Assembly (NCBI GenBank): GCA_026413225.1 | Contig: JAPMTP010000105.1 | Span: 90,986 to 154,985, forward strand | Reading direction: 5' to 3' | From: Otis tarda | Lineage: Eukaryota; Chordata; Aves; Otidiformes; Otididae | DNA: 64,000 nt | Shown: positions 29,271 through 30,777 of the stretch, piece by piece | Layout of the letters: each line of letters begins with the position of its first letter | Position numbering within the stretch: position 1 is the first letter of the stretch | Made by a program: the position numbers and the translations under genes | Notes under the pieces: model-generated | Database searches by the model: none | Told to the model about the DNA's origin: nothing | What the model saw: the letters and a program-made list of their open reading frames with translations, nothing else

Positions 29271-29689
29271 TTATGGCTCAACCATGGTAGGAGTCGGGGA
29301 TTAACCCGAGCTCGGAAGAGTGCTCACTCAGCAATTGTACTTCACACTGAAAGGGACTCAAATATATCTCCCATGGCCTTGCAATTTCAATGTCTTTCCT
29401 TTTCTTCATCTGTCTGATTCTTCTGAGTCAGAACCATTCCATTTCATTCTTTCCATTTAAAACTGCACAAAGTCACATCAAGAACATGAAACAGTTCAGT
29501 TCAGGAGAGATACAGCTTTGAAGCACTTATGGTAGTAGCCATCTTTATTTTAGCTAAGCTAACAGAAGGCAAAATGGTATTTCTACTCAGAGCAGAGTCA
29601 GTAAGAACTGGGTCTGTAAGAAACCCTGAGAGTGTCACAATGGGGGCCTCATAAAGGTCATAAAGGTGCTTGGTTAGGTAGTCCAAAAT

Positions 29690-29707
29690 TGCATCTCCCA
29701 GGAATTC
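29690..29707 (-). other. RNase IIIb catalytic signature EFLGDA (copy A, antisense)
   Basis: The minus strand encodes EFLGDA, which holds the conserved acidic Glu and Asp of the RNase III signature. The codon just before it is TGA where a leucine is expected, so the copy A frame is closed here. Confidence 0.88.
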
Positions 29708-29737
29708 TCAGCGTTGGTAACAATCAGTAATGGTATT

Positions 29738-30038
29738 ATAATGGTACAAGGCATGAGTAAATGCCTGAAGAAGATAAGCCTTGTTCTTAAACTGTAGTTT
29801 ATTTTCTTCTCAAAGTTTTCAAAACCAGAAATAAGGTGATTTAGGGGTTTTTTCAGCATTCTGCTGGGTGATAAAGATACACCTCGGTGGAATCTTCAAT
29901 ACATGAGAATGGTACAAGGCATGAGGTTTTGTTCTTGCAAACCAGTTTATTTTTCGGTGTTTTCAAATCAGAAATAAGGTGATTTAGGGTTTTTTCAGCA
30001 TCTGGGGGTGATCAAACATACACCTCGGTGGAATCTTC
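29738..30038. repeat. Diverged tandem duplication inside the DICER1 segment (copy A)
   Basis: About 29738-29898 and 29908-30038 are two versions of the same DICER1 linker. Each runs from AATGGTACAAGGCATGAG through AAATAAGGTGATTTAGGG to ACACCTCGGTGGAATC. They differ by several indels, so the linker before RNase IIIb is present twice. Confidence 0.8.
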
Positions 30039-30303
30039 AAACAGCCGTACTCAGGTCTTTATAGAGAAAGCTCTGAAGTAGCTACAGGAGCAGAAATAGA
30101 GTTTAGTGAAAGATTTTTCTGCTCACTGTTACAAATGGTGCAGCACACGAAGCAAGCTGAGCAATCTGGGCTCCTGAATATAAGCACTCAGCCCCAATGA
30201 ACACAGCTGGTGAGGTAGCTCTTTCCCAACAGGGCTGAGTTGTCAGATAGCAGCTGTGCAACAGGGTTTCCACGCAGTCTGCAATGCTTTTGTCAGCGAT
30301 ACA

Positions 30304-30404
30304 CTGCAAGTCATAGGAGATAGACTGTTTTACTGCATCAACACCAAAGAAAAAGCTGCAAGTCATAGGAGATAGACTGTTTTACTGCATCAACACCACA
30401 GTTT
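30304..30404. repeat. 52-bp tandem duplication in RNase IIIa part (copy A)
   Basis: CTGCAAGTCATAGGAGATAG and the following bases to CAACACCA occur twice in direct succession with a 52-bp period. A similar small duplication follows around CTGATGGATTCCAGAA (about 30411 and 30453). Confidence 0.85.
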
Positions 30405-30777
30405 TTTTTCTGATGGATTCCAGAACTTCCACTACAAAAATCATCCTCTAACAGCCTGATGGATTCCAGAATCCAGACTACAAAATAGCATCCCCTTCAA
30501 CAGCCTTGCTAGGATACCAGATAGCACATAGCATCCCAGGAGCTGTATCAAAATCATCAAAATCTGATGATGAAACTGAACGCTACCCAGTTACCCAGGA
30601 TGACTTTTGGGTGCTTTCCATTCATAGTTTGAATCAGTGGTTGCTGAAAAATGTGGAGAGAAATTTTCTTCACAGAAGCCCCTCTGATCCCATTAATGAT
30701 ATTATCAATGGATTTTATATGCTCCTGATCATACCCCAGAACATCATCTGTCAAAGCGAGAACCCTTCACAGCACTA

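Follow-up and report, generated by a model that had tools for sequence, protein, structure and literature searches.

How did a piece of a host gene come to lie backwards inside a bird retrovirus, and does it act there? The question is raised by a stretch of 64,000 nucleotides from the bustard Otis tarda (assembly GCA_026413225.1, contig JAPMTP010000105.1, positions 90,986 to 154,985), hereafter the window, in which an earlier note had read antisense DICER1 in a retrovirus. Our analysis makes it probable that the locus descends from a replication-defective, mosaic avian endogenous retrovirus (ERV), in which a reversed stretch of spliced DICER1 mRNA stands where pol and the env surface part would be.

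A 238-bp satellite fills positions 5-26386 and 40366-64000 of the window with more than 200 units. Its array is interrupted by two tandem LTR elements, A (26387-32691) and B (33872-40365), which are built alike from gag pieces, Dicer on the minus strand, part of env and a remnant of reverse transcriptase (RT). The second Dicer-bearing element (33872-40365), the satellite setting and the displaced RT remnants are additions to what the earlier note described. Best matches within the satellite reach 98-99% in 8 of the 11 sampled stretches and 90-91% in the other three, located at 22000-26000 and adjoining the elements. Comparison of the flanks with the satellite shows that the A+B pair is framed by a short target-site duplication, GGCAGG (left copy 26381-26386, right copy 40366-40371). 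When one copy is deleted from the joined outer flanks, the resulting 240 bp match satellite positions 41200-41439 at 97.1% and gap-free; when both are retained, a 6-base gap appears against the satellite. No matching duplication pair was found at the inner flanks of A and B. These flanks border a diverged, satellite-like spacer of 1180 bp (32692-33871), part of which (query bases 19-445 at most) is about 61-63% like the satellite. The single outer duplication, with none at the inner flanks, points to recombination among proviruses within the satellite.

The retroviral nature of the locus, as claimed in the earlier note, is borne out by paired LTRs, a primer-binding site, a polypurine tract, gag and env pieces and the 6-bp target duplication. 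The LTRs (271-284 bp) start with TGTGGG and end with CAACA. All on the plus strand, they occupy 26387-26657 (5') and 32418-32691 (3') in A, and 33872-34143 (5') and 40082-40365 (3') in B. A TATATAA motif, found at LTR position 128 in the 5' LTR of A, is kept in all four, and AATAAA is intact in one of the four. A sequence resembling a primer-binding site follows both 5' LTRs, and a polypurine tract precedes both 3' LTRs. In A, the primer-binding site, recognised from its sequence (26660-26677, plus strand), is presumably complementary to the 3' end of tRNA-Phe; the polypurine tract is at 32402-32417 (plus strand).

On the plus strand of A, gag is present as broken pieces (26862-29062) that correspond to Retro_M (26862-27185; marginal in Pfam, with 25.1 bits against a cut-off of 25), Gag_p24 (27870-28226) and a zinc knuckle (28700-29062). 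The zinc-knuckle unit of A is repeated up to about 29326 and stops about 20 bases short of Dicer. In B, also on the plus strand, a p24 piece (35388-35711, Gag_p24 E 2.3e-15) and a zinc-knuckle piece (36141-36401, zf-CCHC E 1.8e-5) are recognised. A second zinc-knuckle-like unit of B (36854-37157, plus strand) is identified by DNA similarity, with no Pfam match in the plus frame. The unit is thus repeated in both elements (28753-29326, 36109-36410 and 36854-37157), one of the B copies lying inside the Dicer region. A search with the gag p24 piece gave 25 matches, six of them named and all six from birds: Oxyura (85%), Turdus (79%), Hirundo (78, 74 and 72%) and Zosterops (69%). In the Oxyura protein, a gag like that of A is fused to an RT domain.

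Downstream of Dicer, the transmembrane part of env is recognised in A as two pieces of the TLV_coat profile (positions 381-457 and 470-511 of 560; 30724-31125, plus strand), and this match overlaps the far Dicer end by about 25 bases. The corresponding region of B (38455-39575, plus strand) is defined by DNA alignment to A only and gave no Pfam match of its own. A plus-strand open frame crosses from antisense Dicer into env in both copies (30700-30990 and 38305-38637).

In both copies, the RT remnant sits after env, just ahead of the polypurine tract. In B, it is an open, gammaretrovirus-like piece of about 50 residues (39862-40065, plus strand) that matches MLV RT chains from the PDB (E 3.2e-12), with only 14.5 bits for Pfam RVT_1 (cut-off 29.6). 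Its broken counterpart in A (32195-32401, plus strand) aligns with the B piece at E 1.3e-16. A complete loss of pol was considered and rejected on the weak RVT_1 match, confirmed by the PDB RT chains. Other pol domains were absent from the 39 pieces scanned against Pfam, which sample the reading frames; a probe made of the 53-residue tail of P0002 gave nothing below E 0.05; and the remaining pieces between env and the polypurine tract matched no family, with only noise below cut-off (0 of 3 in ncbifam). The usual gag-pol-env order is therefore not seen: gag and the env transmembrane part are present, and all that was recognised of pol is the RT piece, about 50 residues long and placed after env. 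Because this remnant lies after env, the element is a mosaic with its pieces out of order. The earlier note had Dicer in place of pol; Dicer does occupy the pol site, but a short displaced piece of RT survives downstream of env. Signs of alpharetrovirus affinity are mixed, with a marginal Retro_M match, bird gag matches and an RT remnant that is nearest to gammaretroviral RT among solved structures. Rfam gave no match at the gathering threshold in 26300-40500. IMG/VR was scanned for the gag piece (7 pattern matches) and for human Dicer (8), and none of the matches is a relative.

The identity of the reversed segment was assessed by tblastn of human Dicer residues 1439-1922 against the window, a query that agrees with PDB chain 21cb_A along all 484 residues. 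The best match runs on the minus strand of A from 30748 to 29348 and corresponds to human residues 1440-1816 (E 7.2e-55); reversing the query gave E 1.5, and 19 shuffled versions gave 0.039 at best. Three single-frame pieces each match PDB Dicer chains (E 7.6e-9, 2.2e-4 and 4.3e-4), and all seven Dicer words quoted in the earlier note are present in the translation, spread over frames. Dicer on the minus strand between gag and env thus stands as that note had it, against controls of at least 0.039. Its extent has to be redrawn at one end. The segment does run into RNase IIIb, reaching GDIFES (1810-1813), but its beginning is not ahead of RNase IIIa, since residue 1440 falls within the insertion of that domain. 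We take the segment to hold the second half of RNase IIIa, with the D1561/E1564 region, as judged from assumed domain limits and catalytic roles.

The A segment is collinear with Dicer apart from internal duplications (29781-29899 / 29929-30040, and 30410-30506). A frameshift-tolerant alignment with eagle-owl Dicer has 296 of 356 codons identical (83.1%) but needs 28 frame changes and meets 3 stops; the segment thus encodes no Dicer protein. The sense, protein-coding insert expected of a transduced host gene is not what is found, the segment lying on the minus strand with its frames broken in A. In B, the order is shuffled. An RNase IIIb block (36495-36889, minus strand, residues 1682-1810; tblastn 36889-36509, residues 1682-1805, E 7.5e-42) is accompanied by further minus-strand blocks at 37191-38416: residues 1439-1514 (38416-38201, E 3.6e-8), 1584-1688 (37998-37696, E 2.5e-14) and 1493-1551 (37704-37549, E 3.5e-14), the last linked to a weaker piece (37478-37299), and a weak 1612-1645 match. 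Codons identical to eagle-owl Dicer number 48/68, 74/95, 40/48 and 106/125 (the IIIb block), and 23/34 in the weak one.

Two exon junctions establish what kind of molecule was copied. Both A and B pass TIT|DCY (T1698/D1699) and MDSE|LRR (E1788/L1789) without an intron; we take these to be the exact codon boundaries of the human DICER1 exon junctions. The donor was consequently a spliced mRNA, neither the gene nor an unspliced antisense transcript, and the claim of a captured, reversed host cDNA holds. In the exon assignments given in PMC11180504, residues E1705 and D1709 of human DICER1 fall in exon 24, and D1810 and E1813 in exon 25. Among 95 fetched Dicer proteins, 88 read MDSEV and 3 read MDSELRR; an MDSEV majority is what would be expected if most are genomic frames that run past the exon end into the intron. 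The turkey Dicer model breaks directly after NTIT.

The donor was a bird, to judge from the closest proteins. With a bird-like piece of B, all five matches below E 1e-3 (among 11 candidates) are bird Dicers, from turnstone, eagle owl, turkey, scrub-jay and tree finch; this search covered proteins of up to about 1741 residues, most full-length Dicers being longer. Bird-type residues are kept in EWKAPKKSSLGNVQF (B), CNSEQKNLS (A and B), and LYKDLEYG and QFQMEK (B). Among the 90 matches to an RNase IIIb piece of B, every aligned part is Dicer-like. Three words specific to B are absent from all 95 fetched Dicer proteins, none of which is therefore a relative of the insert itself. At five positions that vary among the bird Dicers, L, Q, F, N and Y of the element, as read by eye, coincide with Arenaria, with one mismatch for Bubo, two for turkey, three for Geospiza and four for Aphelocoma. 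On the donor lineage these residues are no more than suggestive, as the shared states may be ancestral.

The boundaries between virus and Dicer are common to the two copies. On the env side, the junction aligns through in both (30510-30995 with 38200-38677). On the gag side, the junction of A and the inner junction of B agree at 27 of 27 bases (29300-29326 / 37131-37157), with a looser likeness, judged by eye, beyond. Shared junctions imply one capture that took place before the copies split. Over three alignment settings of the four LTRs, all three informative sites group 5' with 5' and 3' with 3', and gaps count 1-2 for this split and 1 for each alternative. These sites would favour duplication after integration, but pairwise alignment, in which three of the four LTR ends are off by one base, orders the LTRs otherwise: the two LTRs of A are the closest (14/266) and the two 3' LTRs the farthest (27/270). 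Integration of A and B as one unit was tried as an explanation and finds support at none of the three informative sites. Since both copies occupy a single site with one shared target duplication, the second is no proof that a Dicer-bearing virus spread by replication beyond one integration.

Divergence between A and B is higher in Dicer. Its blocks carry 131 mismatches in 816 positions, compared with 269 in 3899 for the other compared blocks (LTR, leader, MA, CA, TM and 3' parts; the repeated zinc-knuckle unit, 57/363, excluded), which gives an odds ratio of 2.6 (Fisher p 3e-15). Per kb, the Dicer blocks differ at 73-199 positions and the others at 42-100, with 16 for one open CA piece within the CA block. 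Part of the Dicer excess could be inflation from comparing non-orthologous internal duplicates. Were all divergence later than a duplication, the rates should be even; conversion, or selection on gag at an earlier stage, may therefore contribute. Indels are dense as well: over LTR, leader and gag (26387-28590 / 33872-36089), 74 gap openings and 79 mismatches were counted in 2269 columns, a near parity that the satellite does not show. In the satellite, gap openings per kb, from the ten best matches each, are 2.9-5.5 in 8 of 11 stretches and 14-24 in the other three. Sequencing noise may have a share in the indels but was not accepted as their whole cause, because the satellite, albeit with best matches picked, has fewer gaps.

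Taken at face value, these features suggest the following course of events. DICER1 mRNA would have been packaged with viral RNA. During plus-strand DNA synthesis, RT would have jumped from the viral minus strand, close to where gag ends, onto the DICER1 mRNA; having copied this, it would have returned to the virus close to where the env transmembrane part begins. A template switch of the plus strand is proposed because it is the simplest route to an intronless insert in reverse orientation. Further template switches may have produced the RT remnant after env. The product was integrated into the 238-bp satellite array, as the LTRs and the 6-bp duplication attest; this would have been the work of helper-virus enzymes, since the element has no usable pol. 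Two copies then came to stand at the locus, and their Dicer sequence decayed and lost its order, probably as a functionless passenger.

The same arrangement might have come about without any capture in reverse transcription, through a processed copy of DICER1 inserted into an element already deleted for pol, or through genomic recombination after integration. An intronless and decayed segment would fit these routes, as would a recombinogenic satellite region whose pieces are duplicated and shuffled. A 7-base direct repeat, CTTCACA, also lies beside both ends of the A Dicer segment (29340 and 30765). It might mark an insertion into an element that already existed and makes this route slightly likelier, but by our own estimate about 0.14 are expected by chance, and the sign is weak. 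However, the poly(A) that a LINE-type processed pseudogene carries where its mRNA ended was not found: in the 68 bases next to the Dicer 3' end (29280-29347), no stretch of A or T exceeds 2. Both mRNA ends are absent from the segment, and the virus/Dicer junctions are shared by A and B, all of which makes this origin unlikely. That reads from an ERV, a Dicer pseudogene and the satellite were merged in assembly is more improbable still: the window holds no N, the junctions recur in two copies that differ by several percent, and the target duplication is a clean 6 bp, even though a satellite setting with dense indels is where assemblies fail.

Capture by template switching being the preferred origin, there is still the matter of whether the insert acts. 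The earlier note proposed that antisense transcripts might pair with DICER1 mRNA or feed small-RNA pathways. A rival reading goes further: LTR transcripts would pair with DICER1 mRNA and so reduce Dicer, or be a source of small RNAs against it, and the segment would have been kept as an RNA counter-defence. Every LTR transcript would indeed be antisense to DICER1, TATATAA is kept in all four LTRs, and an antisense role needs no reading frame, so that frameshifts alone are no argument against it. Against retention, the Dicer blocks are shuffled and duplicated, they differ more between A and B than the remaining blocks of the comparison, and AATAAA survives in a single LTR out of the four. Plus-strand A/G differences in the Dicer blocks (25) are not above C/T differences (51), which is not the excess expected of editing, and editing of a Dicer duplex was rejected. 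Taken together, decay, duplication, shuffling and excess divergence speak against the proposed role, and we regard it as quite unlikely. A bolder version, in which a lineage of bird retroviruses carried antisense DICER1 as an RNA weapon, their genomic RNA pairing with the host DICER1 mRNA and leaving Dicer starved or cutting its own message, and the insert free to be shuffled for want of any need of a protein, is very doubtful; orientation is its sole positive evidence. That the insert is a passenger is more probable than that it works as a weapon against Dicer, and the likeliest account is a one-time backward template switch that yielded a defective passenger.

The capture is nonetheless real and odd, and its direction is unusual by the standard of the review PMC7264820. 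Retroviral gene capture is known for genes in sense orientation. An intronless, reversed piece of Dicer replacing pol suggests that reverse transcription can fix a host mRNA backwards. As Dicer is the central nuclease of RNA interference, the element also makes antisense capture as a counter-defence accessible to study in one definite case.

No published case of Dicer in a retrovirus was found in the open-licence literature, among the matches listed, by title and start of abstract. In acutely transforming avian retroviruses, host oncogene cDNA replaces viral genes in sense orientation and is expressed as protein. The bustard element resembles them in its defective, presumably helper-dependent layout, in which host cDNA stands where pol and a portion of env would be; it differs in that they carry sense oncogenes, whereas here an RNA-interference nuclease is antisense. 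Crocodilian ERVs are described as having captured KIT-ligand and nectin3 mRNA, with intact frames and reported purifying selection (PMC4299795). They too have host mRNA inside an ERV, nectin3 standing in place of the envelope gene (PMC4299795), but their frames are reported intact, whereas the bustard insert is reversed and broken. Transduced genes usually lie in the sense of gag and pol, according to a review that also describes antisense additional open reading frames, mostly of no known source, between pol and the 3' LTR of the plant LTR retrotransposons Grande, RIRE2 and Retand (PMC7264820). These share with the bustard element an extra sequence on the strand opposite gag-pol; theirs follows pol, whereas Dicer lies between gag and env. 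Lastly, LTR-mediated retrocopies formed by template switching are reported, for chicken as well (PMC5408686, citing Tan and coworkers). As in those retrocopies, a host mRNA would have entered an LTR element through template switching, but here the copy is reversed and has, on either side, gag and env of a provirus that can still be recognised.
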